Translations under genes and position numbers: made by a program
Shown: in pieces, positions 26,346-43,549 of the stretch
How positions within the stretch are numbered: position 1 is the first letter of the stretch
How the letters are laid out: the number at the start of each line of letters is the position of its first letter
Notes under the pieces: generated by a model
The model's database searches: none
Told to the model about the DNA's origin: nothing
Seen by the model: the letters and a program-made list of their open reading frames with translations, nothing else
Origin: Methanobacteriota archaeon
GTDB taxonomy: Archaea > Halobacteriota > Methanosarcinia > Methanosarcinales > Methanosarcinaceae
Direction: 5' to 3'
Length of the DNA: 51,697 bases
Assembly (NCBI GenBank): GCA_016841265.1
Contig: JAENZL010000027.1
Location: forward strand, 1-51,697

Positions 26346-29300
26346 TTACATATTTTTCTTCCGCATTCCCAGGTAAATTCCACCTGCTGCAACCAGTACG
26401 AAGAGAGTTCCTACAATGTCGGCACCCGAGAAAGACATGCCTCCTTCAGCCTCATTTTCAACAGATTCCTTTGTCATCTCATACCCTTCCACGTACGGGT
26501 CAGCAGCAGATTCAAGAGCCCGGGGCACAGGTTCAGGAGAATCGACTCCATACCCGGCATCCACAGCTGTCAAAGTCTGGTTCCCACCCGAAGAGGAAGT
26601 TTCTTCCGGCGGGTTGAGCTTTTCTGCAAGACTTGTTTTTTGCCCGCTACTGCTGTGGTGTTCATCTTCATCCTGAAGAGACTGCTTAGTTGCCTTTTCG
26701 ATTGCTTCGCTGAAGCCGGGTACGGAAACCAGCCCGTTTACGTATTCGTTAAGAAGCGGGTTTCCACAGGTGTGGTGGCAGCAGGTAACCCCGTCATTTA
26801 CAACGGATTCCGCGTATTCCGTAGCCAGGCTTTTCAGGACTTCATCCGAGGCGTCCCAGTTACCTTTGAGTGCAGTTTCGAGCATCCTGGCAGTCATAGC
26901 CTGGTAAGCATGCGGATTGTTGTCCTTGAGCCAGTCGCTGAGTTCCGGGTCCCCTACATAGGTCTGATACACCTGGTTCCAGACATCATCACTTATCAGG
27001 TCCGGGTTCAGGGCTTCCCAGCCCCAGAGGTTTTCAAGGAAATCTCCCATCTCAGCGGCTCCTGCATACCCATTTTGCTGCATCCCCTCGATCCAGGAGG
27101 GGTTGAAGTACCTGGCATACAGTTCTTTTTCAAGGAAAGAACCGAGGGTTTCCACCATTTCGCTACCCGGGTTCCGGAGGTTGAAAATAAAAGATTCGGG
27201 GTACTCCCCGCCGGATGCATACTTCACGGCAAGGTTCAGGCCGCCCAGGTACTGGAAGAACTCGTCGGTGTCAAGGGCTCCGTAAGTATTCGAACTCCTG
27301 CTGTGCAGGGTGACCTCGACGTCCCTGAGGTTGTCCTCAAAGAAGGCTTCGTTTTCAAGCTCGGCGCAGCCCGTAAACTCCGCAAGGCTTCCCCCCCAGA
27401 TGTATTCGCCGTAGGCATTGCTCATCTTGCTTATGTAAAGTTCGGCAAGTTCCTCTGTATTGTTCCAGGTATTGCTCGCGGAAACCGCGTTACTCATGCC
27501 TGTGCCGTATACCCCGTCCGCGGGCCCGAAAATTCTGAGGGTTGCAACCTGCCAGGAAAGGGTCTCATTTTGTAGGGTTTCATTAAGTTCAGCAGCAAGA
27601 GATTTTGTGTTTTCAAGAACATAGTTGGGGTTTTCTGCTGTTCCCGGAAACTCCGACTCGTCGCAGACTGTTCTCACCGCATAATCGATAAGACGGATGT
27701 TGTTCGGGTAAGTGTCCCTGTACAACCCCGAAATCTGGACCATAACATCAATGCGCGGCCTTCCGAGTTCTTCGTCCGGGATGAACACCAGATCATCGTA
27801 GCTGTCAAAGTCCTCATCAGCGTCCTCGAAGTCCGGCTTTACCCCGAGGAGGTAAAGGATCTGGGACTCCATGACACCCTCGTTCCGGGTGGTTTCCCCG
27901 GCCCAAAGGACATAGGCAACCTTTTCGGGATAGCTGCCGTTGTGGCTTTCCCTGTACTGCCTGAGCATCTCATCAGCCATCTCCGTCCCGATTATCCAGG
28001 CTTCTTCGGAGGGGAGTTCCTCGGGGTCAAAGGAGTAGAAGTTCCGGCCCGAAGGCAGGGTATCCGGATCTCTTACAGGGTCTCCACCGGCATTAGGTTC
28101 GATGAACCTTCCGTCCAGGGCTTTTAAGACCTGGTTGATTTCGTTCTTACCCTCTGCAAGCAGGGCAGCGTACTCTTCAGCCGTGGCAAGGTCTGCGGTC
28201 AGGGTTGCGTTCTCGCTGCAGCCGAGCACATAAGCCTGGGCTTCTGTGGAACTATTGCCGTAGAGCAGGACAGATTCGAGAAGGGCAAATTCGGCTTCAT
28301 CGGAATTGTTGCAGCCGGAAAGAGCCGGGTCAAAGCAGAACTCGACATGTTCTTCGAAAGGTTCTCCGAGCATCGAGTTTACCATACCCGCGAGTTCGGC
28401 TCCTTCGGGAGAGGTTCCGAGCACATGCAGGCCGTAGGGCATGGAAGTACTCTTGAGTTCTTCCAGCAGGTCGCCAAGCTCGTCCAGGAAAATATCCTCA
28501 AAGCTCAGTTTATCTTCGGCAAGGCTCATGTTCAACTGGCTGTCAAGCCCGAGTTCCATGGTAAGGTTCAGGATTTCTGCCTTATGCATCTCCACGAGTT
28601 CCTCTTCCATGCCCATGTCAACGGCATTCGTATAGTCGAGGATGGCTCCGTCGAGCTCTGCGTATTCCCCGTAAAGCCCGGCTTCCAGGACAGGAGGGAT
28701 CAGGTGGTCGATGACAACGGCATTACCTCTGCGTTTGGCCTGGACACCTTCCCCGAGCCCGTCCATGACATAGGGATAGATAACCGGGATGTCCCCGTTC
28801 ATCAGGGCAGGCCAGTCTTCACAGGAAAGACAGAACTGTTTGCCAGGCAGCCATTCCACGGTCCCGTGCCTGCCCATGTTCACCATTGCATCAGCTCCGT
28901 ATTCGTTCTGGAGCCAGAGATAGAAGGCAATGTACTGGTGGTGCGGAGGCAGGTCCTTGGAATGGTAGAGGGCATCATTGTCCTGCAGCCAGCCCCTTGT
29001 AGGCTGGGGAGCAAGAATTACCCCTTCTCCGACTTCGATCTTCGGGATTACAAGGTATTTTTCTCCCCCTGATTCCCAGACCATAATCTCCCCGGGCGCC
29101 CTGCCCCAGCGAGAAATTACTTCCTGCTGCCGGGCTTCAGGCAGGGCTTCGAACCATTCACTGTAAGTAGAATTGGGGATCAGGACAACGTCCCCTTCCT
29201 CAACCAGCCGGTCAAGTTCCCCGGGAGCCCAGGTCCCGATATTCGTGCCCTGCACCAGCATAAGGTCCGTAAGTTCGCTCCCGTTCGGGATTCTGGCAGG

Positions 29301-31316
29301 GTTCACGGCATAGCCCGCATCAGCCATTCCTTCAAGGAGCTTGCAAATGCTGGGCGCAACGTCAAGGTAGGAAGCCCCGATCCCATCCTTTCCGCAGCCG
29401 TGGTTGTAATAGATGATTGCAACCTTCTTTTCGGCTTCAGGGGTCCTTTCCGGGGAAAGCTCAACCTGGGCAAGGGTGCGGTTTACAAGCCAGTCAACCT
29501 GCCCCGGGATCGGAACGTAGATTTCCTCCTCGGTTTCAGGGTGAATCTCGGAGGTGGAAATCATGATCGGGTCAATAAACCCATACCATTCAGGCCTGTA
29601 GATCCTCATCATACTGTCAGCCGGGAGAGGGCTACTGCTTTCGTTCCATTCCGTATAATTAAGGTAGCCGTTCAGGACCCCGTTGATAAGGGGGATGTCA
29701 AGCCCTTCGGTATCGAAGTAGTTTCCACGGTACGTAAAAGAGATGAGGGTGTCCACATACGTCTCGGTTTCGTTCCTTATGAAAGGGTCACAAGGATTGG
29801 AAGAATCCCCGTAGAAAGTGATAACATTGACATCCCTTGATTCGAATTCCTGAATAAGGGTGTCGAAGGGTTCCATCCTATTAGGGTAGTAAGAAGCGTA
29901 GAAAGCCATGCCTACGGTGGGAGCACTTGCGTTATAACGGTGCCCTTCATCCTCCCGGTTTGCATACCATTCCAGGTATTCCTCATAACTTTCGGCAAAA
30001 TAAAGGTCTGAACCGTTAACGAAGTCAGGGTGGTAGATAGCTCTTGCAGGTGGCCCAATCGGAGCCTCTACCTCAAGGTCGTTCCTGCCGTAATACTCAT
30101 TTGCAAGGTAGAAAATCATGTAATCCAGATTCCGGTCATTTGCAGGAATATTTGACCAGTAACTCTGTAGAAAAGCCTTAAATACGGCTTCTTCACCATC
30201 GAATTTTGAAGGGACTGGTTCAAGATATTCAGGAAGGGTAGTAGTCTGACCAATGACCACAGCCCCGTTTTCAATTGCCTCATTAATATTATCTCGAAGC
30301 ACTTCAGCATCCTGGGTAAACATATTGATGTAGATAATATCCATGCTGCCGAAATCGACCTCGGTGTGGTTTTTCAGGTTATTCGGCGTAAAATAGCTCA
30401 AGGTCAGATTCAGGTCACTGTTACTGTTGAGCCTGTTTACCACAGTCTCAAGCTGGTAGTCATACCTGTATCCGGTGATGATTGAAACGTTAAGGTGCGG
30501 GCTGTTTGAATAAGGAAGAGCTTTTTCTCTTAACAGAGCCACCGTCACATTATCTTTATATAGAAGGCTGGAACCCATAGTGCGAACAGTGTATCCGCAG
30601 ATAGTGGTTTTTTCAGAATAAAGATCCAGAAGGGCAAAAATTTCCTCGGGGTTAGATGTTCCGTCATAGCCCAGGTAGATATCTTTTGAAACAGGAGTGG
30701 CGTTTGCTACCGTTAGCTCTTCATCAACATTATAACATTTTAACTCCCCGTCTTTTTCATAGTATTTAATAGCTATAAGCGTGTAGTTGCCCGGGGAAAC
30801 GTCTTTAAGTTCATAATAGCCGCTTGAATCAGATGTAGAGTTTGAAACAATTGCTCCAGATTCAGACTTCAAAACTACGGAAACGTTATCTTTGTACAAA
30901 AGACTGGAACCCATAGTGCGAACAGTGTATCCAGAGATAGTGGTTTTTTCAGAATAAAGATCCAGAAGAGCAAAAATTTCCTCGGGATTGGGGGTTCCAT
31001 CATAGCCCAGGTAAATATCTTTTGGAATAGGGGTGACATTTGTTACTGCTAACTCTTCATCAACATTATAACATTTCAATTCACCATCTTTTTCATAATA
31101 CTTAATAGCTACAAGCGAGTAGTTGCCCGGGGGAATGTCTTTAAGTTCATAGTAACCACTCTCATTGCTGGTAGTATTTCCTACGACTTCAAACTGTGAA
31201 CTTAACGAGCTAGCGCAGGCAGTAGAAACCAGCATAAAGAGCAGTAAAAATATCAATCCGAAAACTTTAGCGTATTGCACAGGGTTTTTTAATTTATCAG
31301 TTAGAATTCTTTCCAT
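26346..31316 (-). CDS. Membrane-anchored extracellular CobN-like protein (second copy)
   Basis: A 1656-residue homolog of the large cobaltochelatase subunit CobN (CobN/magnesium-chelatase family). Unlike cytoplasmic CobN it has a signal peptide (about residues 15-36), many N-glycosylation sequons, a Ser/acidic linker and a C-terminal membrane segment (VGTLFVLVAAGGIYLG then RKKNM). After the signal come two 112-residue carboxypeptidase-regulatory-like beta modules (about 50-161 and 162-273) that are nearly identical at DNA level. The CobN body follows (about 275-1560), with YYNHGCGKDGIGASYLD, NMGRHGTVEWLPGK and LFGPADGVYGTG-like segments. A CCHHTC motif lies near residue 1520. ATG with GAGGAG upstream. 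No CobS/CobT partner is present. It has its own upstream operator. Role in corrinoid or metal capture is inference. Confidence 0.87.
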   Translation of the reverse strand: MERILTDKLKNPVQYAKVFGLIFLLLFMLVSTACASSLSSQFEVVGNTTSNESGYYELKDIPPGNYSLVAIKYYEKDGELKCYNVDEELAVTNVTPIPKDIYLGYDGTPNPEEIFALLDLYSEKTTISGYTVRTMGSSLLYKDNVSVVLKSESGAIVSNSTSDSSGYYELKDVSPGNYTLIAIKYYEKDGELKCYNVDEELTVANATPVSKDIYLGYDGTSNPEEIFALLDLYSEKTTICGYTVRTMGSSLLYKDNVTVALLREKALPYSNSPHLNVSIITGYRYDYQLETVVNRLNSNSDLNLTLSYFTPNNLKNHTEVDFGSMDIIYINMFTQDAEVLRDNINEAIENGAVVIGQTTTLPEYLEPVPSKFDGEEAVFKAFLQSYWSNIPANDRNLDYMIFYLANEYYGRNDLEVEAPIGPPARAIYHPDFVNGSDLYFAESYEEYLEWYANREDEGHRYNASAPTVGMAFYASYYPNRMEPFDTLIQEFESRDVNVITFYGDSSNPCDPFIRNETETYVDTLISFTYRGNYFDTEGLDIPLINGVLNGYLNYTEWNESSSPLPADSMMRIYRPEWYGFIDPIMISTSEIHPETEEEIYVPIPGQVDWLVNRTLAQVELSPERTPEAEKKVAIIYYNHGCGKDGIGASYLDVAPSICKLLEGMADAGYAVNPARIPNGSELTDLMLVQGTNIGTWAPGELDRLVEEGDVVLIPNSTYSEWFEALPEARQQEVISRWGRAPGEIMVWESGGEKYLVIPKIEVGEGVILAPQPTRGWLQDNDALYHSKDLPPHHQYIAFYLWLQNEYGADAMVNMGRHGTVEWLPGKQFCLSCEDWPALMNGDIPVIYPYVMDGLGEGVQAKRRGNAVVIDHLIPPVLEAGLYGEYAELDGAILDYTNAVDMGMEEELVEMHKAEILNLTMELGLDSQLNMSLAEDKLSFEDIFLDELGDLLEELKSTSMPYGLHVLGTSPEGAELAGMVNSMLGEPFEEHVEFCFDPALSGCNNSDEAEFALLESVLLYGNSSTEAQAYVLGCSENATLTADLATAEEYAALLAEGKNEINQVLKALDGRFIEPNAGGDPVRDPDTLPSGRNFYSFDPEELPSEEAWIIGTEMADEMLRQYRESHNGSYPEKVAYVLWAGETTRNEGVMESQILYLLGVKPDFEDADEDFDSYDDLVFIPDEELGRPRIDVMVQISGLYRDTYPNNIRLIDYAVRTVCDESEFPGTAENPNYVLENTKSLAAELNETLQNETLSWQVATLRIFGPADGVYGTGMSNAVSASNTWNNTEELAELYISKMSNAYGEYIWGGSLAEFTGCAELENEAFFEDNLRDVEVTLHSRSSNTYGALDTDEFFQYLGGLNLAVKYASGGEYPESFIFNLRNPGSEMVETLGSFLEKELYARYFNPSWIEGMQQNGYAGAAEMGDFLENLWGWEALNPDLISDDVWNQVYQTYVGDPELSDWLKDNNPHAYQAMTARMLETALKGNWDASDEVLKSLATEYAESVVNDGVTCCHHTCGNPLLNEYVNGLVSVPGFSEAIEKATKQSLQDEDEHHSSSGQKTSLAEKLNPPEETSSSGGNQTLTAVDAGYGVDSPEPVPRALESAADPYVEGYEMTKESVENEAEGGMSFSGADIVGTLFVLVAAGGIYLGMRKKNM
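30535..31190 (-). repeat. 336-bp tandem duplication inside the CobN-like gene
   Basis: Two in-frame copies with a period of 336 bp (112 codons) encode the N-terminal beta modules; long stretches are nearly identical, for example around 30571 and 30907. The high DNA identity points to a recent duplication or gene conversion. Confidence 0.85.
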
Positions 31317-31850
31317 TGTATCTCCTCGAGAAAAATCGAATTATGTAAGCCCTGGTGTGGGGCTGAACACCGGGTTAGGGATTGCAAAGGGACAGCAATT
31401 GCAAGTCAAAACTTCTTTTTGAATGAGATTCCCGGAGATGGAACATACCGGGAAAATGCATTTCCGGAGGGGCATGATTCCAGAAATTGAACACAAGTTT
31501 ACTTTCTGAAAGTTGAGCAAATGCTAGCGACAATAAATAAAAAACATAATGATGCGCCAACCATGAAGATGATATCGTTTTTTTATGACAGTTAATCCCA
31601 CCTTTTCCGTTCAATAGTCTCCACTTACGGAACAACTCAAGTTGAGTTTATTTGGCATATAACCCCTGTTTTTCGGGTAACGATTGTTACCCTGAGAGAT
31701 AACAAGAAGTTAAAATGGCTGGAAAAATAGCCAGATAGAATAGAGAAAAATTTCAAATGAAAACCAATAAACGCTCTACCATAAAAAGAGGAAATGAAAA
31801 AAAGGATTTGGGGGCACTGAAATAAATGATGCCCCCAGTCTATCGAAGTC
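31317..31850. other. Long leader region of the second CobN-like gene
   Basis: Between the two CobN-like genes. It contains the 18-bp operator (31675-31692), a TATA-like GTTATATG on the minus strand near 31656-31664, a 15-bp palindrome AACTCAA-G-TTGAGTT at 31634-31648, and then about 300 nt before the ATG, giving an unusually long 5' leader. I see no clear cobalamin-riboswitch boxes. Very short hydrophobic frames occur within it but are unsupported. Confidence 0.5.
31675..31692. promoter_or_regulatory. Operator upstream of the second CobN-like gene
   Basis: GGGTAACGATTGTTACCC is a perfect inverted repeat (7-bp arms, GATT spacer). On the gene strand it lies about 11 bp before a TATA-like element. 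The same sequence with one change is at 38690-38707 before the DUF2162 gene. An additional TTGTTA half-site lies next to it on the upstream side in both places. Confidence 0.75.
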
Positions 31851-34800
31851 TCAAAGCTTCCTCTTCCTGAATCCGAGATAGATTCCTCCCACTGCTGCAA
31901 GTACGAACAAAGTGCCCACAACGTCAGAACCTGAGAAAGACATCGGACTTCCTCCCTCGGAACCATCAACTGCATCTTTCTGCATCTCGTAGCCTTCCAC
32001 ATAAGGATCGGATTCGGCAGATGAAGAGCTTTCCGGAGCATCGGGAGTTTCGGTTCCGTATCCGGCATCGGTTTCTTGAGCAGTTGTCTGGTTCGCACTC
32101 TTTACCACCGGGGTAGAACTGCCCCTGTTACCACTGCTGCTACTAGTACTGGGTGAGGGAATAGGAGTAGTCTCCGGGAAATCGGTTGCTTCGGTGATCT
32201 TATTATTGTATGCGTCCTGAAGCTCCTGGCTGACTCCCGCAACGGACATCATGCCCTTCACATACTCATGAAGCGAGGGGTTTCCGCAGGTGTGGTGACA
32301 GCAGGTGACCCCGTCCTCTACAACTGACTTTACGTACTCGGAAATCAGCTGGTCTCTTATCTCGGTATTCTCCCAGTAGCCTTTACGCATTGTTTCCAGC
32401 ATCCTGGATTCTATTGACTGCATGGCGTAAGGGTTGTTTTCCTTGAACCACTCCTGCATGTCAGGGTCGTTGATGTAGGTTTCATAGACCAGTTCCCAGT
32501 CGCTGTCATCCACGAGGTCCGGGTCACAGACTTCCCAGCCCCAGAGGTTGTTTACGAACTCGGCCATCAGCTTGCCTCCGGAATACCCGGATTCCATCAT
32601 GCCCTTGATCCACTGGTCATTGAGGTACCTGGACCGCAGGTTCTTTTTCAGGTATTCGTCCATCGGGACCATCCCGCAGTTTTCCGCGTCCTGGCTCCGG
32701 GTATCGGAGACGTACATCTCAGGAGTTTCCCCTGAAAGATACCTGCTCACCAGGTTCATGCCACCGAAATACTGGAAAAAGTCGTCGTTGTCCAGGGTAT
32801 CATAGAGGTTAGAGGAATCCGAGTGAACAGACGCATCCGCTGCTTTCAGGTTTTCTGCCAGGAGCTCGGAACATTTTTCGCCCCAGATATCAGTCCCGTA
32901 GGCATAACCCATCTTGTCGAGGTAAAGCTCGGCAATCGTTTCCTCGTTTTCCCAGGTCCCACTTGCACCGATGGCATTGGCAACCCCGATCTCGTAAGTC
33001 CCGTCCTTAACCGCAAAGCAACGCATTTCGGACAATTTTTTTGCGGTATCACTGTCATACCCTGCAGCGACAAGGGCAGCAAAGATCTGCTGGCTGTTCT
33101 CATTCACATAGTTCGTATAGTTGGTATCCGGGACTGTGGATTGGTTGGCTGCAAGCCTGACAGCCTCATCTACCATTTTTATCTTGTCAGGGAAAGCATC
33201 CCGCATCCCGGCGGTCGTATAGACAATATCGATCCTCGGCCTGCCGATCAGGGATTCGTTTCTCAGGGGAGAGCCTTCAGGCAGGAGCGCATACATTTCG
33301 GACTCGTTCATGACCGCAAGCCCGTCGACCTGCCTGGTTTCATCGTCCCAGGTCGGCCTTATCCCGAGCAGGTAAAGCACTTCGGCTTCAAGGGTCCCGT
33401 GATCTCTTATGAACTCCACGCCAAACCTGGAGAACGAGACTTTTTGCGGGTATTCCCCGTATTTTCCATAATAGTCCTCAAGCAGGGAATTTGCCATGGC
33501 AACTCCCAGTTCCCAGGCAGCTTCCGAGGGGTAAAGCCTCGAGTCCACACCGTAGAAGTTGCACCCTGTAGGAACCGAATCCGGGTTCTGTATCGGGTCC
33601 CTGCCTAACCTCGGAGGAATGTAGCCACCTTCAAGGGCTGAGAGCAAATGGTCCATTTCCTGGGAACACTGCCTGAGCCTGTCCCTGTATTCGATCCCGA
33701 CCTCAAGGGCGGAACTTAGCGAATTCTCATTGTTCCCGTAGACCAGGTCCTGGGCTGCTTCAGGGGTGATGTTACTGTTGCTGCTAACCACTTCCCAAAC
33801 AAGCCGGTCCACCCTGCTGTCATCCGAAGGAATCCCGAGCGGGTATTCCGTTGTATTGGAATAGAAGGCAGCTTCCACAGCTTTTTCAAAGCTGTTTCCC
33901 ATCATTGCCCTCACCATCAGGCTCATCTCGTCCCTGTGCAGGTCCAGGATATCGGCTTTGTACTCAAGGCCCTGTTTCAGGTCGATGTTTACCGAACTGT
34001 TGTTGAAGCCGTAGAGCGTGTCCTGGGCGTCCCGGTACTTCGTACCGTTGTAGATAACATCCCAGACCAGGGCATCTACCTTCGTATCGTTTTCAGGAAT
34101 GCCTGAGGGGTAGAGAGTTGCATTGGAATAGAAAGCAGCGGTCACATTCCCTTCAAAGGAAGTGCCCAGCATTGTCCTGATAACTGAGGGCAGGTCGTCC
34201 AGTACAGGTGCGACAACTCTGTCTTTGTAGCTCAAACCGAACTCCATGTCCCGGGTTACGGATGCGTTGCTGGACTCATAAACATTGTTCTGAGCCGTTG
34301 CGGGATCCGTCCCGTTGATTACAACTTCCCTTATCATCCGGTCTACATTCGTATCCCCTTCGGGAATTCCTTCCGGGGAACCGGGATAGAAAACAGCGGT
34401 CACATTCCCTTCAAAGGATGTACCCATGATTACCCGAATAATGGATACGAGTTCGTCCTGCTTTTGCTCCAGGCTCTTTTCGGGAGGTACCTCCCCGAAC
34501 ACATGCATGCCGTAGGGGATGTTTTCTTCGGAAATTTCCTCGAGATACTCGTGGAGGACGTTTTTCACGAAATCGTTGAAGAAGGTTTCATTGGTCCTGA
34601 GCTCTTCAACCATGCTTTCGTCAACTTCAAGGTCAACATCGAGCTTGAGTTCAAGCATCTCATCGATTATGAGCATCCGGTATTTTTCCTGCACATCGGT
34701 CCCGTCCATGGCAGGGTCGTAGTAGGTCTGAATGTTTCCTGCAAGCCCTGCCATTTCCCCGTGCAGCCCTCCCTTTTCAAGGGTAGGGGTCAGGTGATCG

Positions 34801-36740
34801 ATTATCAGGGCATTTCCACGGTATTCCGCAGTCAGGCCTTCCCCGACGTTTGCCACGATATAGGGATAGATATTAGGAATATCCTGGAGCTGGAGGGGTG
34901 CCCATTCCGCTGTACGGTTCATCCCGTACGCCGAGCCGGGGAGCCATTCGTGGGTCCCGTGGGTCCCGAGATGGATAAGGGCATCGGGCTGCCACTCCTC
35001 ATTCTTGTTCAGCCAGAGGTAGAAAGCGATGTACTGGTGCGGAGGCGGCAGGATACTGCTGTGGTACATGGCATTTTCATTCTGCATGAAACCCCTGGCA
35101 GGTTGGGGCATGAGCCAGATATTCCCACAGCGGACAGCCGGGATCACGATATATTTCCCACTTTCGTTTTCCCAGATCATGTGGCTCTTGTCCGAAGGCA
35201 CTTCTTCTGCCCAGGGCGTGCCCCATTCAGCAATGGTAGCTTCCCGGAGGTCTTCGGGAATTTCAGCCTCAAACCACTCCCTGTAGGTCTCCATTGGCAG
35301 GAGTACCATGTCCCCACTTTCAATTCCGTTCTGGACCATTGCCTCGAGTTCCCCGGGAGCCCAGCAACCGACATTCCGACCCTGGCTCTGGATCCTGTCC
35401 AGCAGTTCCGTTGAGTTTGCCGGGATATCCTCGACATTATAGTTCCTTTCGCTTTCATTCATATTTTGAAGTATGGAAACCATGCTCGAGATGGTGTCAA
35501 GGTAACTTGCCCCGACGTTATCCTTTCCCGGCGGGTAGTTGTAATAGATAATTGCAACATTTTTCTCGCTGTTATCCTTGAGTTTGAGTTCTGCCCAGTT
35601 TATCGAGCGGTTTGCAATCCAGTCGACCTGGGTGGGGATTGGCTCATATACGTACTCGTTCCAGGAAACCTGTATATTCTTCCCGACCACGATGTACTCG
35701 AAAATGCCATCCCTGTCCGGAGCCATGGTCTTTCGGGCGACCTCTTCGGTGGGAATCCCCCTGTTAACGTCAGCGGGGTCATCGGATTCCGATGCCACGA
35801 TACCTTTCAGTACCGCCACGTCCAGGTGTTCCAGTTCCTCGATTCCACGGGTATAGTTTTCGTAGTTAAGCGCAAAACTCTTTAGAGAAATCGCACACTG
35901 GACAAGAGGTTCACCATTTTCGTCACAGTAAAATTCGGTGACATTGTTAAACGTATCAAAACCTGCGATTACGTTACAGTCCTTGCTTTCAAGGTCCCTG
36001 ATAAGCGCGTCCACGACCTCGGTATTTCCATCTTTATAATCGCTCTTATGGAACCATATCCCAATTGTGGGGCGGTCCGGGTCATAGACCCTGTGCTCCC
36101 CGTTTGAGCTGTTGCCATACCATTCAAGGTATTCGGAAGTGTTGTCGAACCAGTACTTATCGACAGGAGAATCCAGGTGGTAAAGCCCGGCAGGCAGGAT
36201 TATAGGAGCCTCATATTCCCAATCCGCTGTCAACTCCGTTTTGCTTGAGAAATTCCGGGCAAGGTAGGCAAGGAAGTTTCTGGAGTTTTCCTTGAGGAAT
36301 TCCTCCTCTACTCCGATGTTGTAAAAGTACTTCTCGACCATGCTTCCGTTTTCATCGCCCGGATAAGCATAGTCATAATCGGACATATTGAACGACGCCC
36401 CCGAGGTGGAGGTAATGTCGATAAGCATGGTCCCATTCGTCTTTGCCCTTTCAAGGTCGTCTCCAATCTCATCAAAGACAGAACCCCAGAGCATGTAGGT
36501 GAATATGATGTCCGGGTTTCCGAGATCAACTTCAGAAAAATCCGTAGTTACGGACTCGTAATATGTCAGGTTCAGCTTGTCATTATATAGGCTGGTATTC
36601 CAACCCTCTTCAAAAACAGCCTGAGTACCGTAGCTTATTACCGTTATATCAACGTGGTTTTCATCTGCCGATACGTTCGGCGCAAGCAGCAAAAGAAGCA
36701 CTGCGCTTAAAACCAATAACTTACATTGTATTCTATGCAT
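31851..36740 (-). CDS. Membrane-anchored extracellular CobN-like protein (first copy)
   Basis: A CobN/magnesium-chelatase family protein of about 1629 residues. The ATG at 36740 is chosen because GGGGAT precedes it and a clean signal peptide follows (LLVLSAVLLLLLAPNVSA); the frame opens further upstream at 36812. Sequons are frequent, a Ser/Thr/Pro-rich linker precedes the C-terminal anchor (VGTLFVLAAVGGIYLG then RKRKL), and the CCHHTC motif is conserved with the second copy. The central part has a module repeated three times (86-90 residues each; DNA about 33700-34450; core MGTSFEGNVTA-FY) where the second copy has one. It follows DUF2149 at 211 bp. Extracellular placement argues against ATP-driven chelation by CobNST; energy from the adjacent ExbB-type channel is the likely alternative. 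Confidence 0.87.
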   Translation of the reverse strand: MHRIQCKLLVLSAVLLLLLAPNVSADENHVDITVISYGTQAVFEEGWNTSLYNDKLNLTYYESVTTDFSEVDLGNPDIIFTYMLWGSVFDEIGDDLERAKTNGTMLIDITSTSGASFNMSDYDYAYPGDENGSMVEKYFYNIGVEEEFLKENSRNFLAYLARNFSSKTELTADWEYEAPIILPAGLYHLDSPVDKYWFDNTSEYLEWYGNSSNGEHRVYDPDRPTIGIWFHKSDYKDGNTEVVDALIRDLESKDCNVIAGFDTFNNVTEFYCDENGEPLVQCAISLKSFALNYENYTRGIEELEHLDVAVLKGIVASESDDPADVNRGIPTEEVARKTMAPDRDGIFEYIVVGKNIQVSWNEYVYEPIPTQVDWIANRSINWAELKLKDNSEKNVAIIYYNYPPGKDNVGASYLDTISSMVSILQNMNESERNYNVEDIPANSTELLDRIQSQGRNVGCWAPGELEAMVQNGIESGDMVLLPMETYREWFEAEIPEDLREATIAEWGTPWAEEVPSDKSHMIWENESGKYIVIPAVRCGNIWLMPQPARGFMQNENAMYHSSILPPPHQYIAFYLWLNKNEEWQPDALIHLGTHGTHEWLPGSAYGMNRTAEWAPLQLQDIPNIYPYIVANVGEGLTAEYRGNALIIDHLTPTLEKGGLHGEMAGLAGNIQTYYDPAMDGTDVQEKYRMLIIDEMLELKLDVDLEVDESMVEELRTNETFFNDFVKNVLHEYLEEISEENIPYGMHVFGEVPPEKSLEQKQDELVSIIRVIMGTSFEGNVTAVFYPGSPEGIPEGDTNVDRMIREVVINGTDPATAQNNVYESSNASVTRDMEFGLSYKDRVVAPVLDDLPSVIRTMLGTSFEGNVTAAFYSNATLYPSGIPENDTKVDALVWDVIYNGTKYRDAQDTLYGFNNSSVNIDLKQGLEYKADILDLHRDEMSLMVRAMMGNSFEKAVEAAFYSNTTEYPLGIPSDDSRVDRLVWEVVSSNSNITPEAAQDLVYGNNENSLSSALEVGIEYRDRLRQCSQEMDHLLSALEGGYIPPRLGRDPIQNPDSVPTGCNFYGVDSRLYPSEAAWELGVAMANSLLEDYYGKYGEYPQKVSFSRFGVEFIRDHGTLEAEVLYLLGIRPTWDDETRQVDGLAVMNESEMYALLPEGSPLRNESLIGRPRIDIVYTTAGMRDAFPDKIKMVDEAVRLAANQSTVPDTNYTNYVNENSQQIFAALVAAGYDSDTAKKLSEMRCFAVKDGTYEIGVANAIGASGTWENEETIAELYLDKMGYAYGTDIWGEKCSELLAENLKAADASVHSDSSNLYDTLDNDDFFQYFGGMNLVSRYLSGETPEMYVSDTRSQDAENCGMVPMDEYLKKNLRSRYLNDQWIKGMMESGYSGGKLMAEFVNNLWGWEVCDPDLVDDSDWELVYETYINDPDMQEWFKENNPYAMQSIESRMLETMRKGYWENTEIRDQLISEYVKSVVEDGVTCCHHTCGNPSLHEYVKGMMSVAGVSQELQDAYNNKITEATDFPETTPIPSPSTSSSSGNRGSSTPVVKSANQTTAQETDAGYGTETPDAPESSSSAESDPYVEGYEMQKDAVDGSEGGSPMSFSGSDVVGTLFVLAAVGGIYLGFRKRKL

Positions 36741-36775
36741 GTTATCCCCTGGATAATGTGCCCGAAACCCGGGAA

Positions 36776-36812
36776 GATTTCCTGGCGGGAGTTTGCCGGG
36801 TTCCGGAATCAA
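36776..36812 (-). promoter_or_regulatory. Hairpin in the leader of the first CobN-like gene
   Basis: AACCCGG at 36776-36782 pairs with CCGGGTT at 36806-36812, ending about 36 nt before the ATG. It could modulate translation or transcript processing within the operon; no riboswitch family is recognised. Confidence 0.35.
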
Positions 36813-36951
36813 TTTTCATATCTGCATTCGAATTTCTTCTTAAATTGCAACAACTCGATCATGACAACATAATTGAGACAGTCCGGACAATACTCCAGTT
36901 CAAATAAATTGAAGTTAAGACAACTTTACTTGTGCAATTTTTCCAAAAAAA

Positions 36952-37338
36952 TTAACCAGAAGTTTCGTTATTTTCAGCCTCTTCCTCACTTTCAGGCACG
37001 TAAATCACCCTGCCGTCAGCCAGTTTGTAAGCCGTTCCGAGAGCTTCTCCTGTCCCCCCCCCGATGTTGTCGGTCATGTTCAGGACTTCTATGGGTTTCC
37101 CCTCTTCCTTGATAATGATCTTCATATCCTGCTGCCCCGGATTTTTCACAATAGTGATATCTTCGTTGGGGTTCAGGAGTTCAGGGAGCTGGTAGGACAT
37201 CACCAGGGCAACCAGCAGGGCAACCGAGAAGACCATAGCCACATCGAAAAGGTTGGCAACCCCGGTAAGGGGGTTCTGGTCTTCAGGGTCAGCGAAGAGA
37301 CCTGTACGGTGGTAGCGTCTTGATTTTGATCTTTTCAT
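36952..37338 (-). CDS. DUF2149 (ExbD-like) protein
   Basis: A 128-residue protein with one membrane helix (about residues 27-50: LFDVAMVFSVALLVALVMSY) after a basic, cytoplasmic-type N-terminus, then an extracytoplasmic domain rich in hydrophilic residues, ending in an acidic tail. This is the topology of ExbD/TolR, the stator partner of ExbB/TolQ, and DUF2149 genes commonly neighbour MotA/TolQ/ExbB and CobN genes. The start overlaps the ExbB-type gene stop by 4 bases (ATGA), showing translational coupling. The helix contains an Asp near its start (FDVAM), which could be the proton-coupling acid as in ExbD. Confidence 0.83.
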   Translation of the reverse strand: MKRSKSRRYHRTGLFADPEDQNPLTGVANLFDVAMVFSVALLVALVMSYQLPELLNPNEDITIVKNPGQQDMKIIIKEEGKPIEVLNMTDNIGGGTGEALGTAYKLADGRVIYVPESEEEAENNETSG

Positions 37339-37967
37339 CCTTGTTCCCCTGTTTTTTCTTCAATTGTGTCAAGGATGTAATCGATATCTGACATATCTTC
37401 CCAGTACCAGCGCCTCCTGATCTGGGTCAGGACGTAGCCGATTATTCCGGCAAAGAGCCCCACAACCGTGGTGGCAAAGGCGATCATGAGGTTGTTTGCA
37501 AGGGTGGCAATGTCTCCGCTTGAAAGCCCTATCAGAGCGGGGCCGAGAGGGATAAGGGTGCCCATGAGCCCGAGCATGGGGGAAATCGTTGCAACGATCT
37601 TTGTTTGCTCAAGGCGCCTGGCCATTTTGATTTCATATGCCTCGGCAAGTCTTTCGATCGCCGGGAAGTTCAGATCATTCAGGTACTTCGAAGCTTCTCT
37701 CGAAAAGGCAGTTACCATGTAGTTCTGCTTTATGTCTCCCAGAACCCCGGCAGCCTCCGAAAAGTTTGAATTCAGGCAGGATTCCCTTAGACCCTTGCAC
37801 TGAACTTCCAGATTATCCATGTCCCTGTGCCGCTTTGCGTACTCGGAAAGAAACTCCCCGATAAGGATAAGGGAAAAGAGCACCAGAAGCAGGAGGATCA
37901 GGATTACCGGATAGAGCAGAGCCGAGGAGAAGGTATACATTATCTCGAAGATGGGGCCTGCACTCAT
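37335..37967 (-). CDS. MotA/TolQ/ExbB proton channel family protein
   Basis: A 210-residue membrane protein of the ExbB/TolQ/MotA family, whose pentamer carries protons around an ExbD-type partner and turns proton (or sodium) motive force into mechanical work. Helices lie at about residues 12-36, 125-150 and 160-190; the conserved region TKIVATISPMLGLMGTLIPLG and the AFATTVVGLFAGIIGYVL helix are family hallmarks. Overlaps both neighbours by 4 bases: DUF2162 upstream and DUF2149 downstream. Its usual partners in bacteria energise outer-membrane receptors; here the likely client is the pair of surface CobN-like proteins. Confidence 0.9.
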   Translation of the reverse strand: MSAGPIFEIMYTFSSALLYPVILILLLLVLFSLILIGEFLSEYAKRHRDMDNLEVQCKGLRESCLNSNFSEAAGVLGDIKQNYMVTAFSREASKYLNDLNFPAIERLAEAYEIKMARRLEQTKIVATISPMLGLMGTLIPLGPALIGLSSGDIATLANNLMIAFATTVVGLFAGIIGYVLTQIRRRWYWEDMSDIDYILDTIEEKTGEQG

Positions 37968-38641
37968 TGTTCAGACCTCACATGCCCGAGGAAAAATCCT
38001 CCCAGAATGATGAGTCCCAGTATAAGTAGGGGAAGCACTCCTGAACTGCCTCCGTCCAGGGTAGCCAGGTGCATCTGTTTAGTTTTCATGTAGGCAGGGA
38101 TCAGCAAAGCCCCCAGAAGGTAATAGATCCCGAGGAGCATCATGACGGTCCCCAGGGTCTCGGGAGTCTTGCCCATTTTCCTGAAAATGAGGGAAGAGCC
38201 TACAACCGAGATGAAAAAAGCAGTTCCTACAAGCAGCCCGATCTTCAACCCGCCTATGTCAAGCGTGGAAGCCAGCAGCAAGCAGGATACCGCAAGAGCC
38301 GTCAGGCAGACAGGGCAGGGCATTGAGATGGCGAGGAAGGTATGCCTTGAAACGTCCTTTCCTGAGTTCCATTTTTTCTGGGTGTAAATCCCGGCTCCAA
38401 TGAGAAGCAGGGAAACGATCACATGAATCCCCATGCCCATCGATGAAATTTTTTCAAAACTATCCATGCTTATGTTATCCACAATACTTCCAAAGAGCAG
38501 GGCCAAAAAGAAGTAGCTGCTTCCGACTGCGAGGATTTCTCGCGTTTTTAGGTTTGAAAAGCCGCAACCTAATCCAGTTTTAAGCCCGAAGATGAGGATA
38601 CCTATTAAAATCCCAATAACAGTCAATACAGCAGAGTCCAT
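37964..38641 (-). CDS. DUF2162 membrane protein, putative transporter
   Basis: A 225-residue protein with about six predicted helices (for example VLTVIGILIGILIFGL at the N-terminus, MGIHVIVSLLLIGAGIY, and LGTVMMLLGIYYLLGALLIP). It matches the DUF2162 family, proteins of unknown function often next to ExbB/DUF2149/CobN genes; distant similarity to cadmium- or metal-type exporters of the LysE fold is possible. The pair of cysteines in MPCPVCLTAL within a helix could bind metal. It is the first gene of the operon; GAGAG precedes the ATG and the shared inverted-repeat operator lies 49-66 bp upstream. Confidence 0.8.
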   Translation of the reverse strand: MDSAVLTVIGILIGILIFGLKTGLGCGFSNLKTREILAVGSSYFFLALLFGSIVDNISMDSFEKISSMGMGIHVIVSLLLIGAGIYTQKKWNSGKDVSRHTFLAISMPCPVCLTALAVSCLLLASTLDIGGLKIGLLVGTAFFISVVGSSLIFRKMGKTPETLGTVMMLLGIYYLLGALLIPAYMKTKQMHLATLDGGSSGVLPLLILGLIILGGFFLGHVRSEQ

Positions 38642-38689: not shown

Positions 38690-38707
38690 GGATAACGATT
38701 GTTACCC
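38690..38707. promoter_or_regulatory. Operator upstream of the DUF2162-ExbB-DUF2149-CobN operon
   Basis: GGATAACGATTGTTACCC, identical to the perfect palindrome at 31675-31692 except for one base in the left arm. On the gene strand it is followed within 8-11 bp by a TATA-like GTTTTTATTTAAC, and preceded by a TTGTTAGCC half-site. Position immediately before BRE/TATA fits an activator site or a repressor that blocks TFB binding. Confidence 0.75.
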
Positions 38708-39031
38708 AAAAGGCTAACAAGCCAGAAGCTGAAATCGTTTTTTAGAGAATGAAAAGTTTAGGAGAAACTTTGGACCTGAGCTCAAGAACTAAAAAAGTAA
38801 AAAAATAACATCCGAAAATATCAAAGGATTATTATAAGCAGCGATTAAAAAAATAATCGGAGGATGCAATAAGAAATTTTTGGCAAATATTAATATTAAT
38901 TATGCGCAAATTAACTCTGTTAACATTTGAGATTTGATTTGAGCGAGTGAAATGTAGAAAATAAGATTCAAGTAAATTTGAGTAAACATGATTAGAAAAA
39001 AGAAATTAGTAGAGGGCATATTACATATTAC

Positions 39032-39086: not shown

Positions 39087-39632
39087 ATGGTAGTAAATGG
39101 TATGAAGAATTCGGGAATTAACGGAGGAGGAGAAAAACTATTCAAAGCAATATCAAGCGACACCCGCCTCTCCATTCTGGAACTCCTGAGCGGAGAGAAC
39201 ACTCACATCTCAGGTATTGCCAGAGAACTGGGGATCTCCGTACCCGTAGCTGCCAAACACGTAAAGATTCTGGAGGAAGCCGAACTGGTCGAGAGAAAAA
39301 AGTTAGGGAACCTCCATATGATAGCAATCAAAATCAGCAACGTATATTCATTTCTGGACCACTTTGCAGAAAACCGGAACGTAGAAGTTGAAGAAGGCAC
39401 TACCCTCCTTGAAGCCCTGAAAAGTGTTGCCGCAGTGGAGGTCACACAGATGGGAAACAGGATTAAAGTAGTTTCCACGGACGGAGAGGAAGGTTTTTAC
39501 ATTTATGAAGTTGACGGGAAATTCTCGGACAAAACAGTGGATGAATATACTTTTGAAGAAGACGCAGTCGTGGAGTGGAAAAAACTTATCCCGGTCACGA
39601 AAAAAAGACTGTTTGTGAACATCAGGAGATGA
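39087..39632 (+). CDS. ArsR-type regulator fused to a DUF4430-like (transcobalamin-like) domain
   Basis: Residues about 15-90 form an ArsR-family winged helix (LFKAISSDTRLSILELL, HISGIARELGISVPVAAKHVKIL). Residues about 98-168 resemble DUF4430, the transcobalamin C-terminal-like domain: an opening VEVEEGTTLLEALKS, a YIYEVDG strand, then DEYTFEEDAVVEWKKL, matching the usual EGTT-L-AL / Y-VNG / GD-VEW pattern. The protein contains no cysteine, so it cannot be a classical thiol-based ArsR metal sensor. It is divergent from the ExbB-CobN operon. The natural reading is a regulator that senses a corrinoid or related ligand through its C-terminal domain. ATG at 39087 with GGGA upstream; ATG at 39102 is an alternative. 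Ligand and DNA site are inferred. Confidence 0.8.
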   Translation: MVVNGMKNSGINGGGEKLFKAISSDTRLSILELLSGENTHISGIARELGISVPVAAKHVKILEEAELVERKKLGNLHMIAIKISNVYSFLDHFAENRNVEVEEGTTLLEALKSVAAVEVTQMGNRIKVVSTDGEEGFYIYEVDGKFSDKTVDEYTFEEDAVVEWKKLIPVTKKRLFVNIRR

Positions 39633-40453: not shown

Positions 40454-41470
40454 TTACTGCCTCCTCTTCTTTTTTCCTTTTGGCTTTAACCCGCGATCCG
40501 GCTTTTTTCGGGGAGCTTCGGGATTCTGAAGCCTGATCTGCTGTACCTTTGCGTCCAGTTTTTCTGCAAGGGAGGGGACTTTTTTCCCGGAGTAAAGGTC
40601 CATTCTCGCAGCCAGGGAAAGCTTTGCAGCAACGGCTCTTGCAATTTTTCCCCGCTGCCACCAGGGAGAGGTATTGATCAGGGGGTGACTGAAAATTATC
40701 CCGTGTTTCGGGGAGGGAGCCCTGGACCTGAGGTGTTTGAAAAGGGCTTTGTTAGCCCCTATTACCTGGACCGTACTGGAGGGAAAAGCTGCAAGCTTTT
40801 CCAGGCTGCCTGCTATGCTGATAAGCCTGGCCCCCAGCATGGGACCTGCAAGCAGGCTCAGGTTTGGAGCTATGTTTTCCATACTGGATTCTATATATGC
40901 CTCGATCTGCTTCCGCCGGTCGTAGAGGCTGCAGACGCTTGTGGCAAACCCTTTGAGAAGTTCCTCATCAAAGGCTTCGAGTTCCGCACCCATGGAATCC
41001 GTGGCTCTTGCATAAAGAGGATCTTCGGGGGCAACATTTTTCCTGGAACCGTATTTTGCGACAAACCTGCCCAGGGTTTCTCCACTCAAACCACTTTCAG
41101 GGAAATAACCCCCGTACCACTCGGAAAGCCTTTCCGAAAGGACATTTGCAGTCTCATTTACATCATCCAGGGCTTCCACTGCAAGGATTATGCGCTGGTC
41201 AGGTGTTAACGCTCCCGAGATCTGCAGCTTTGCAGCATCCAGGGTTACTTCGTGTAAGAGGGAATCATACTCTTCCGAAGATCTGACAAACCCACAGGCA
41301 AGAGCAGCGGACCGGAGGTCAAAACCTGCAGGGGGAACACCTTTACCCGCTTCCCTCAAGGAAAGGGAACGGAGCGCAAGCTCCCTGACATTTTTAGAAA
41401 ACTGATCGGATGCAAGGACTTTCCCGTCCTCACCCAGATCAAGCGTTCCAAACCAGGATTCAAGTCTCAA
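40454..41470 (-). CDS. NOP5/NOP56-family C/D box RNP core protein
   Basis: Scaffold that links fibrillarin to L7Ae and the C/D guide RNA. The 338 residues show the order expected: an N-terminal fibrillarin-binding domain, a coiled-coil (about residues 130-220), then the NOP domain with GPMLGARLISIAGSLEKLAAFPSS and VIGANKALFKHLRS followed by PKHGIIFSHPLI, and a basic C-terminal tail (KKPDRGLKPKGKKKRRQ). It sits directly upstream of flpA and its start overlaps the end of the upstream mptG by 4 bases, so mptG, nop5 and flpA may share a transcript. Confidence 0.95.
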   Translation of the reverse strand: MRLESWFGTLDLGEDGKVLASDQFSKNVRELALRSLSLREAGKGVPPAGFDLRSAALACGFVRSSEEYDSLLHEVTLDAAKLQISGALTPDQRIILAVEALDDVNETANVLSERLSEWYGGYFPESGLSGETLGRFVAKYGSRKNVAPEDPLYARATDSMGAELEAFDEELLKGFATSVCSLYDRRKQIEAYIESSMENIAPNLSLLAGPMLGARLISIAGSLEKLAAFPSSTVQVIGANKALFKHLRSRAPSPKHGIIFSHPLINTSPWWQRGKIARAVAAKLSLAARMDLYSGKKVPSLAEKLDAKVQQIRLQNPEAPRKKPDRGLKPKGKKKRRQ

Positions 41471-42432
41471 AAAAGCCCTCCGGAGATCTCCGCACCCCTA
41501 TTCCTCACTTTCGTGAGCAGAGTTTCCCCACCAAGGGACTCGTCAAGCATCTGCTGGACTTCCTTCCGGAGCTTTTCACCTTCACTCATGCTCCCTGCAA
41601 TCCCGTAGACCACAGGCCCGAAGGAACTGACTCCGGAGCCGCTTGCCCCGTAATCCCGCATGAACTGTACGATATCGAGCACCGGCCGGGGCTGGATGTC
41701 GACCTCCCGCTTTTTGAAACCGACATTCTGGATGTGATTGACCGCAGCTCCGAAGCTTTCCAGGTCCTCTTCCATAAGCGCGGGGAGCATCTGCATGAGA
41801 ATCACATGAGCAACCTCCTGAACTTCAGCCAGGGGAATGGGACAGACCTTTTTGAAAATATCAACCTCTTCGGCATCATGAGCCCCTTTGATGCCCGCTA
41901 TTGCAAGGACGATGGGCCAGTCCGGGAAATCCTCCCTGAAAAGTACGGGCCCCGGGGGCACATGGCTGGCGGCTGAAGGGGAAAAAGCACCCTTGTCCTT
42001 GAATTTGTGCCCTCCGTCCAGGATAAATCCCCCATTTTCGAAGGCAGCGACCCCTATCCCGGAAGTTCCGCCTCTCCCAACCGCAACTGCAAGTTCCCGG
42101 ACACTTTTTCCAAGCCCGAAAACTTCATTTACCGCTGCTGCAGCCGAAAGTGCGGCCTGGGTCCCGGAACCGAGCCCTACATGGTCAGGAATCTCCTTTT
42201 CAATATTGATCCTGATGCCCCGGCCCCTGGGAAGAATGGATTCCACCGCTTTTCGCATCCTGCCTGCGAAAATGGAATCACCCAGAATTTCCACAGTATC
42301 AGCTTCAACGGCAGAAATTTCCATAGAGGGGGATTCTAGCGTGATTCCCACCCCTCCATCGACCCTGCCAATCTCTGCATTCAGGTCAATAAGGGTCAGA
42401 TGAAGTCTGGATGGAGACACTAATCTAATCAT
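41467..42432 (-). CDS. mptG: Beta-ribofuranosylaminobenzene 5'-phosphate synthase (downstream copy)
   Basis: Condenses p-hydroxybenzoate or p-aminobenzoate with PRPP to give beta-RFA-P, an early committed step of tetrahydromethanopterin/sarcinapterin synthesis. GHMP-kinase-like fold, 321 residues: SPSRLHLTLIDLNAEIGRVDGGVG at the start and the glycine-rich GLGSGTQAALSAAAAVNE are family hallmarks; GRGGTSGIGVAAFENGGFILDGGHKF follows. It overlaps nop5 by 4 bases. A second, closely related copy lies 163 bp upstream. Either copy may be the housekeeping enzyme. Confidence 0.9.
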   Translation of the reverse strand: MIRLVSPSRLHLTLIDLNAEIGRVDGGVGITLESPSMEISAVEADTVEILGDSIFAGRMRKAVESILPRGRGIRINIEKEIPDHVGLGSGTQAALSAAAAVNEVFGLGKSVRELAVAVGRGGTSGIGVAAFENGGFILDGGHKFKDKGAFSPSAASHVPPGPVLFREDFPDWPIVLAIAGIKGAHDAEEVDIFKKVCPIPLAEVQEVAHVILMQMLPALMEEDLESFGAAVNHIQNVGFKKREVDIQPRPVLDIVQFMRDYGASGSGVSSFGPVVYGIAGSMSEGEKLRKEVQQMLDESLGGETLLTKVRNRGAEISGGLF

Positions 42433-42595: not shown

Positions 42596-43549
42596 TTAGA
42601 TGATATCCGCACCTTTATTCCTGGCTTTCGTCAAAAGTACAGTTCCGCCCACGGACTCATCGAGCATCCTCTGGACCTCGTTCCTGACCTGAGCCGCTTC
42701 CCTGGAGTTGTCAACAAGGCCGTAGACAAGAGGCCCGAAGGAACTCATGCCTGCCCCGTAGCAGCCGTTCTCCCGCATGAAAGCCATGGTATCCTGCGCA
42801 ACCGGCTGGAGGTCAACCTCTCGCTTTTTGAAACCCACGGTCTGGACGTGATTGACCGCAGCCCCAAAACTCTCGGGGTCCTCTTCAAGGAGAGCAGGAA
42901 GCATCTGCATAAGGATTACATGCGAGACCTCCCTTACCTCGAAAAGTGGGATAGGGCAGGTTGTATTGAAGACGTTGATTTCCTTATCGTCATGGACCCC
43001 CTGACCGTTGGGAACTGCAACAACAATCGGCCAGTCAGGAAACTCATACCTGGAGAGCAAAAGGCCCGGAGGGATCCCCTTCACATCATGTGAAAAGGTT
43101 TTCTTATCCTTGAACCTGTGCCCGCCGTCCAGCAGGAAGCCGCCCCTTTCAAAGGCTGCAACCCCGATCCCTGAGGTGGTCCCCCGATTTGCGGCAATGG
43201 CAATATCCGTTACGGATTTTCCAAGACCGTAAAGTTCGTTTACGGCCTTACCCGCGGAAAGCGCTGCCTGAGTACCCGAACCAAACCCTACATGGTCAGG
43301 ATAATCTGCTTCGACCCGGATGCGTATACCTTCTCCTTCGGGGAGCAGGGTAAGGGCTGAACTTCGGATTTTTTCCGCAAGGTCGGACTCGCCTAGCACC
43401 TCAACGGAATCTGCCTTCTCTGCAGAAAGCTTGAGAAAAGGGGAATCGAGGGTAATCCCCACCCCTCCATCAACCCTACCAATCTCCGCATTCAGATCAA
43501 TAAGGGTCAGATGAAGTCTGGATGGAGACACTATTCTAACCGTATTCAT
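42596..43549 (-). CDS. mptG: Beta-ribofuranosylaminobenzene 5'-phosphate synthase (upstream copy)
   Basis: A 317-residue paralog of the neighbouring enzyme, with the same SPSRLHLTLIDLNAEIGR opening, GFGSGTQAALSAGKAVNE glycine loop (Gly-Phe instead of Gly-Leu) and RGTTSGIGVAAFERGGFLLDGGHRF. Identity is high throughout, and the first 60 or so bases of the two genes are almost the same, so this is a tandem duplication. GAG lies just before the ATG. Divergence is concentrated in the middle and C-terminal parts. It could be redundant or act on the alternative acceptor (p-aminobenzoate versus p-hydroxybenzoate), which is speculation. Confidence 0.9.
   Translation of the reverse strand: MNTVRIVSPSRLHLTLIDLNAEIGRVDGGVGITLDSPFLKLSAEKADSVEVLGESDLAEKIRSSALTLLPEGEGIRIRVEADYPDHVGFGSGTQAALSAGKAVNELYGLGKSVTDIAIAANRGTTSGIGVAAFERGGFLLDGGHRFKDKKTFSHDVKGIPPGLLLSRYEFPDWPIVVAVPNGQGVHDDKEINVFNTTCPIPLFEVREVSHVILMQMLPALLEEDPESFGAAVNHVQTVGFKKREVDLQPVAQDTMAFMRENGCYGAGMSSFGPLVYGLVDNSREAAQVRNEVQRMLDESVGGTVLLTKARNKGADII

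Follow-up and report, generated by a model that had tools for sequence, protein, structure and literature searches.

How do methanogens that use methyl compounds, and that depend heavily on corrinoid proteins, adjust their supply of cobalt and B12? In the literature searched, we found no regulation of their cobalt or B12 supply at the level of transcription. The question is raised by a gene of a Methanosarcinaceae archaeon (GenBank assembly GCA_016841265.1, contig JAENZL010000027.1), which is located on the stretch of 51,697 nucleotides that is referred to here as the window. A first-pass annotation, made from the sequence alone, had read its product as a corrinoid (or tetrapyrrole) sensor of a previously undescribed class. 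The protein is probably a switch controlling cobalt and B12 supply in Methanosarcina-type archaea; more specifically, we favour, with a probability of roughly two in three, an autoregulated one-component regulator that responds to corrinoids and governs cobalt uptake, CobN-like surface proteins and, probably, lower-ligand synthesis.

Domain architecture and fold of the regulator

The open reading frame at positions 39087-39632 of the plus strand, whose boundaries are exact, encodes a protein of 181 amino acids. Its N-terminal part is matched by the ArsR-type winged helix-turn-helix profiles HTH_5 (PF01022; residues 25-69) and HTH_20 with 37.8 and 37.6 bits, respectively, both above the cut-offs, and matches the folds of SrnR, CzrA and SmtB in the PDB with E-values of about 1e-5 to 1e-4. 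Residues 104-165 match DUF4430 (PF14478) with 20.1 bits (E 8.8e-4), just under the cut-off of 23.8 bits; the same family is matched by 22 of 22 aligned relatives at E <= 0.01, the best of them at 4.9e-8. Since the full-length AlphaFold model reached a pTM of 0.50, the sensor fold was taken only from a separate model of residues 95-181 (pLDDT 91, pTM 0.80). When this model was compared with the PDB by Foldseek, the top match, with a probability of 0.99 and a TMq of 0.56, was 5no0, the beta domain of human transcobalamin. Its E-value of 0.09 is by itself not significant, and the assignment leans in part on the Pfam match; 7qbg (transcobalamin:CD320) appeared at rank 10 with a probability of 0.96. 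Profile searches and structure prediction confirm the architecture that had been proposed from sequence patterns, an ArsR-family winged helix joined to a predicted transcobalamin-like (SLBB/DUF4430) beta-grasp domain.

The regulator contains no cysteine, as the first reading had stated, and thiol-type metal sensing is thereby ruled out; its relatives possess at most one cysteine, which is not conserved. An alpha-5 type Zn site was considered and rejected, the histidine near position 91 not being conserved, and the NCBIfam metalloregulator model NF033788 gives 48.2 bits, which is below its cut-off of 55. In the alignment of relatives, neither His40 nor His58 varies, and His77 is almost invariant. 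The stretch EEGFYIYEVxG is invariant or nearly so even in distant relatives, which suggests a conserved site.

The class as such is not new. Where they deal with these fusions, Burroughs et al. 2007 (PMC1796856) reported that ArsR-type winged helices in Methanosarcina are joined to intracellular SLBB domains of the transcobalamin-like kind, and they proposed one-component factors whose ligand is B12, a B12 precursor or some other compound. Beyond this paper, our literature search found no further publication on ArsR-DUF4430/SLBB regulators.

The divergent operon and the genes beside related regulators

The ExbB system and the two CobN-like genes, from which the regulator had been said to diverge, are real and are encoded on the minus strand. 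A DUF2162 membrane protein (37964-38641; Pfam, 234 bits) occupies an HmuT-like position and is followed by an HmuU-like MotA/TolQ/ExbB proton-channel protein (37335-37967) and by a DUF2149 protein in an HmuV/ExbD-like position (36952-37338), both assigned by Pfam. Next comes the first protein of the CobN/ChlH/HmuS superfamily, CobN1 (31851-36812), which has a probable signal peptide and a C-terminal membrane anchor and whose true start is likely an internal ATG near position 36738. The second, CobN2 (26346-31316), is also predicted to be membrane-anchored. Judged by their sequences, both large proteins appear to be secreted and C-terminally anchored. Members of the CobN/HmuS/ChlH superfamily handle several tetrapyrroles, and the sequence of CobN1 scores 405, 375 and 329 bits against solved CobN, the heme dechelatase HmuS and ChlH, respectively. 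We do not equate CobN with B12 synthesis here: the proteins seem to be anchored at the surface, and their matches to the three are almost equally good; because the DUF2162/ExbB/DUF2149 context resembles hmuTUV-S, the CobN-like neighbours are no evidence of B12 synthesis as such.

This resemblance is based on descriptions of gene types in the hmuTUVS system, of which HmuS is a heme dechelatase (PMC13227078, PMC10100974). The hmu operon of Bacteroidota (hmuYRSTUV) is described as combining a membrane-anchored CobN-superfamily protein with an ExbB-like protein, a gene in ExbD-like position and a multi-pass protein, which the CobN-like, ExbB-like, DUF2149 and DUF2162 set of the window resembles. 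Neither a HmuY hemophore nor a TonB receptor was noticed among the open reading frames read in the window; unlike Bacteroidota, the archaeal host lacks an outer membrane, and an outer-membrane receptor is not expected. The functions of archaeal CobN-type members have been called unclear in a 2025 paper on HmuS (PMC12583661).

Matches to the regulator at E <= 0.001 were found in 145 of the 186 genomes of the order, and those near 1e-4 are probably matches of the winged helix only. The gene neighbourhoods of about 100 loci with relatives were surveyed. Methanosarcina-type loci retain the divergent DUF2162-ExbB-DUF2149-CobN layout with one exception, L010, in which a gene for cobalt CbiM directly follows the regulator, and in three lineages beyond Methanosarcina (L079/L082, L135 and L136) relatives are likewise flanked by DUF2162-ExbB-DUF2149, CobN being present or absent. 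CbiM adjoins relatives in L010, L024, L084 and L132, in the last of these on both sides, and the CbiM proteins of L010 and L132 score above the cut-off of the cobalt-CbiM model TIGR00123. CbtA adjoins relatives in L127, L129, L130 and L131; BtuF-BtuC does so in L085 and L086 and is found nearby in L088, L090 and L106. NicO/CbiQ/CbiM genes lie within a few kilobases of relatives in L114 and L119, and NicO together with a weak CbiQ match lies close to the relative in L117. The relatives with cobalt or corrinoid links fall in several separate clades of the tree. As far as our searches show, it is a new observation that the relatives recurrently flank cobalt/corrinoid genes (CbiM, CbtA, BtuCDF, DUF2162-ExbB-DUF2149-CobN) across several lineages. 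The company of corrinoid or metal genes, which the first-pass annotation had expected of such fusions, is thus kept by some of them; about half of the surveyed relatives have neighbours without a known cobalt or corrinoid link, and not every member need therefore regulate adjacent corrinoid genes.

Other associations were seen in the same survey. A radical SAM/HhH and DUF4130 pair, which is DNA-repair-like, lies directly downstream of relatives in at least 25 loci (for instance L112, L094 and L100), and an ADP-ribosylglycohydrolase gene lies beside relatives in nine loci, with the relative just downstream in L011, L013-L017, L021 and L025, all from ANME-1 and related metagenome-assembled genomes. 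One locus (L116, genome G133) carries a second, partial ArsR-DUF4430 copy that is divergent from the main copy. Within the window, two tandem, closely similar paralogs are encoded on the minus strand at 41467-42432 and 42596-43549; we take them to resemble beta-ribofuranosylaminobenzene 5'-phosphate synthase of the methanopterin pathway.

Candidate operators and the predicted regulon

Alignment of the intergenic regions revealed a palindrome, CAAGTAAATTTG, in the regulator's own promoter (38969-38980). Its core AAGTAAATTTG, which becomes the imperfect palindrome CAAGTNAANTTG when lengthened by one base, is invariant at this position in 27 loci, these being the Methanosarcina-type ones among the loci examined, which is the pattern that autoregulation would give. 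In most loci, a half-site, TTTACTTG, follows about 50 bp downstream. Site searches located a further palindrome between the DUF2149 and CobN1 genes (CAAGTAAAGTTG, 36921-36932) and the sequence AAAGTAAACTTG upstream of CobN2 (31494-31505). The distal CobN copies lack the palindrome. In the 3.65-Mb genome, the exact pattern CAANTTNACTTG, a consensus whose N positions were picked after some of the sites had been viewed, occurs at 11 places, four of which belong to the regulator, CobN1 and cbiM (two sites); others are located in the flank of a duplicated CfbA-type chelatase, at a ThiC paralog and in the flank of MtaC. Sites at a ribosomal protein gene and in the flanks of a lysyl-tRNA synthetase and a universal stress protein were not taken as members of the regulon.

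The second element consists of three half-sites. It was found by intergenic alignment 49 bp upstream of the DUF2162 start (GATAAC-N4-GTTACC-N6-GCTAAC, 38691-38718), and a genome-wide exact search located GGTAAC-N4-GTTACC-N6-GATAAC upstream of CobN2 (31676-31703). Nearly all Methanosarcina loci have GRTAAC-N4-GTTAYC-N6-GRTAAC upstream of DUF2162, and its distance is constant, in most cases 48 and 58 bp. The form with 4-bp spacing has four exact matches in the 3.65-Mb genome, at the DUF2162 promoter, upstream of CobN2 and inside two unrelated coding genes, compared with none for a reversed-pattern control; the form with 6-bp spacing has two, one of them at CobN2. With one mismatch allowed, GTTAYC-N6-GRTAAC has 23 sites genome-wide, whereas its reversed control has 34; single-mismatch sites are therefore uninformative, and the analysis was restricted to exact or composite ones. 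In other genomes, exact sites with 4-bp spacing are in many cases intragenic, and these were treated as chance occurrences. In the flanks of relatives outside Methanosarcina-like genera, both motifs were mostly not found. In the sister genome G080, the full triple half-site stands at the same spacing before a second DUF2162 copy, which is truncated and is followed by another CobN gene (L057:1854-2300); of this arrangement, only the triple half-site and CobN2 are left in the window. The element is also present at a further CobN gene in G080. GRTAAC-N4-GTTAYC is also located upstream of NosD-like secreted repeat proteins (SASAATLYVKEGG...) in L065, L005 and L168 (genome G156), once far from a CobN cluster, and these proteins are possible surface partners.

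Do the palindromes extend to genes that are not linked to the regulator? A position weight matrix was trained solely on the sites in the regulator's own promoter and, unlike the consensus, was not chosen with the other sites in view. In 23 genomes, which are related and not independent, it was used to score the 320 bp that precede cbiM, the unlinked cobalt gene. In 22 of these genomes the best site reached at least 11.2 bits and in the remaining one 9.7; the median best score was 11.5 bits, compared with 5.75 bits for 263 other gene upstreams, among which the two top-scoring controls were CobN genes. The cbiM score was reached by 0.3% of shuffles, and of 2000 symmetric column shuffles of the matrix 9 performed equally well, a frequency that is explained by permutations reproducing the same matrix. 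The cbiM gene of the genome studied here has two exact palindrome sites, and in the sister genome, which has a 98% identical regulator, the site at cbiM reads CAAATTTACTTG, the reverse complement of the site at the regulator in the window.

A strong site is also present upstream of the ThiC paralog ThiC-A in 23 of 23 orthologs, including that of this genome (median 13.5 bits), whereas it is present in none of eight sampled genomes upstream of ThiC-B, whose median of 6.6 bits lies at background level. ThiC-A scores 551 bits on the BzaB/BzaF model TIGR04386, which is below the cut-off of 700, but it is nearer to this model than ThiC-B, the gap to the thiC model being about 25 compared with about 112 bits. 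Because of this shift toward BzaB below the cut-off, a role of ThiC-A in cobamide lower-ligand synthesis is plausible only. As far as our searches show, the connection of the regulator's promoter with unlinked cbiM and ThiC-A through the palindrome represents a new predicted regulon.

Two further palindrome sites concern tetrapyrrole and corrinoid genes. CfbA, the F430 nickelochelatase, is tandem-duplicated in the genus, with a perfect CAAGTTAACTTG between the copies (G000:C29:181183, L209), and one of the copies may have turned to cobalt; this site holds within the genus only and was not found in most other genomes. The site CAAGTTCACTTG lies between a CobW-related GTPase and the methanol corrinoid protein MtaC (G000:C51:40153, L211). 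Neither the window nor the tested flanks of cbiM, thiC, cfbA and mtaC gave a match to any family in Rfam, which includes riboswitches, and riboswitch control at these loci was rejected.

The conservation of two distinct motifs, together with the fixed distance of the GTTAYC element in the divergent DUF2162 promoter and its recurrence near the relatives of L084 and L129, could also mean that CAAGTNAANTTG belongs to a different cobalt/B12 regulator, under whose control the ArsR-DUF4430 gene would stand too, and that the ArsR-DUF4430 protein is a downstream, local regulator of nothing but the CobN operon, which acts via GTTAYC-N6-GRTAAC. We consider such a division unlikely, since the invariant palindrome core stands in the regulator's own promoter and since it is relatives of the regulator, not of another factor, that recur beside CbiM and CbtA.

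A proposed corrinoid switch and its known counterparts

According to the favoured reading, the C-terminal SLBB/DUF4430 domain would sense the corrinoid pool, either a cobamide or a late precursor, and the winged helix would bind the palindromic operators. When corrinoid is plentiful, the regulator would probably repress a regulon for cobalt and corrinoid supply, which would comprise the regulator gene itself, the surface system DUF2162-ExbB-DUF2149-CobN, the cobalt importer cbiMNQO, which is unlinked, and the ThiC paralog that likely makes the cobamide lower ligand. Palindrome-type sites (CAATTTAACTTG, TTTACTTG) come after a BRE/TATA-like stretch (ACCGTAACCTTTATGTAT) in cbiM promoters, where a bound protein would be well placed to repress; from this position and from the site in the regulator's own promoter we infer autoregulation by a repressor that would bind DNA at high corrinoid levels. 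Of the sensor proposal in the first-pass annotation, the role in corrinoid and cobalt metabolism is supported by the CbiM, CbtA and BtuCDF neighbours and by the palindrome at unlinked cbiM and thiC; corrinoid as the ligand is suggested by the same associations. A bolder version, which we put forward tentatively, is that the protein serves Methanosarcina-type archaea as their master transcription factor for cobalt and B12 and also controls a CobN/ExbB machine at the surface that would scavenge corrinoids or cobalt from tetrapyrroles.

The same regulator with the same regulon might respond to another signal, either Co2+, bound via His40, His58 and His77, or heme, sirohydrochlorin or F430. The conservation of the three histidines is in line with Co2+; a tetrapyrrole other than a corrinoid would agree with the likeness of the divergent operon to a system whose HmuS de-chelates heme, with the range of substrates of the superfamily and with the palindrome at one of the two duplicated CfbA-type chelatases in this genus. 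However, His58 is part of the helix that recognises DNA, in most other genomes no CfbA site was found, the predicted sensor fold is that of a domain of a B12 carrier, and the recurring partners are cobalt CbiM (TIGR00123), CbtA and BtuFC-like genes, all of which make a non-corrinoid signal rather unlikely. It is improbable that DUF4430 is a dimerisation or structural module without corrinoid binding in a general trace-metal or stress regulator, as the many relatives beside DNA-repair or ADP-ribosylhydrolase genes could suggest and as would suit the caution of a reviewer of the 2007 paper against presuming B12 for all HTH fusions (PMC1796856), because EEGFYIYEVxG is conserved across distant relatives and cobalt contexts recur in several lineages.

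The candidate regulator, its candidate operators and its predicted targets are named and directly testable in tractable laboratory species such as Methanosarcina acetivorans or M. mazei, and they would open a way into the many archaeal 'CobN' genes of unclear function (PMC12583661). The closest precedent is provided by the ArsR-SLBB fusions of Burroughs et al. (PMC1796856), which have the same architecture, come from the same lineage and were proposed to sense B12 or its precursors; in the account of these fusions, target genes, operators and neighbours do not figure, whereas a regulon is proposed here. As far as our searches show, three things are new: this predicted regulon, the association with genes of cobalt transport, and the connection to a surface system of the CobN/ExbB type. 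With the ArsR/SmtB metalloregulators SmtB, CzrA, CadC and SrnR, the regulator has the winged-helix fold in common, but it lacks cysteines, carries an additional C-terminal domain and stays below the NF033788 cut-off. The C-terminal domain shares its predicted fold and its Pfam family, DUF4430, with the beta domain of transcobalamin and intrinsic factor; in contrast to transcobalamin, the regulator is intracellular, has no alpha/alpha barrel partner and is fused to a DNA-binding domain. If the proposal is true, one protein fold carries B12 in animals and senses it in archaea. The proposed role, control of the genes for cobalt and corrinoid supply, is that of the cobalamin riboswitch in the control of bacterial btu and cbi genes, but it would be exerted by a protein sensor with candidate DNA operators at loci that are blank in Rfam. 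A transcobalamin-fold protein would then do in Methanosarcina-type archaea what cobalamin riboswitches do in bacteria.
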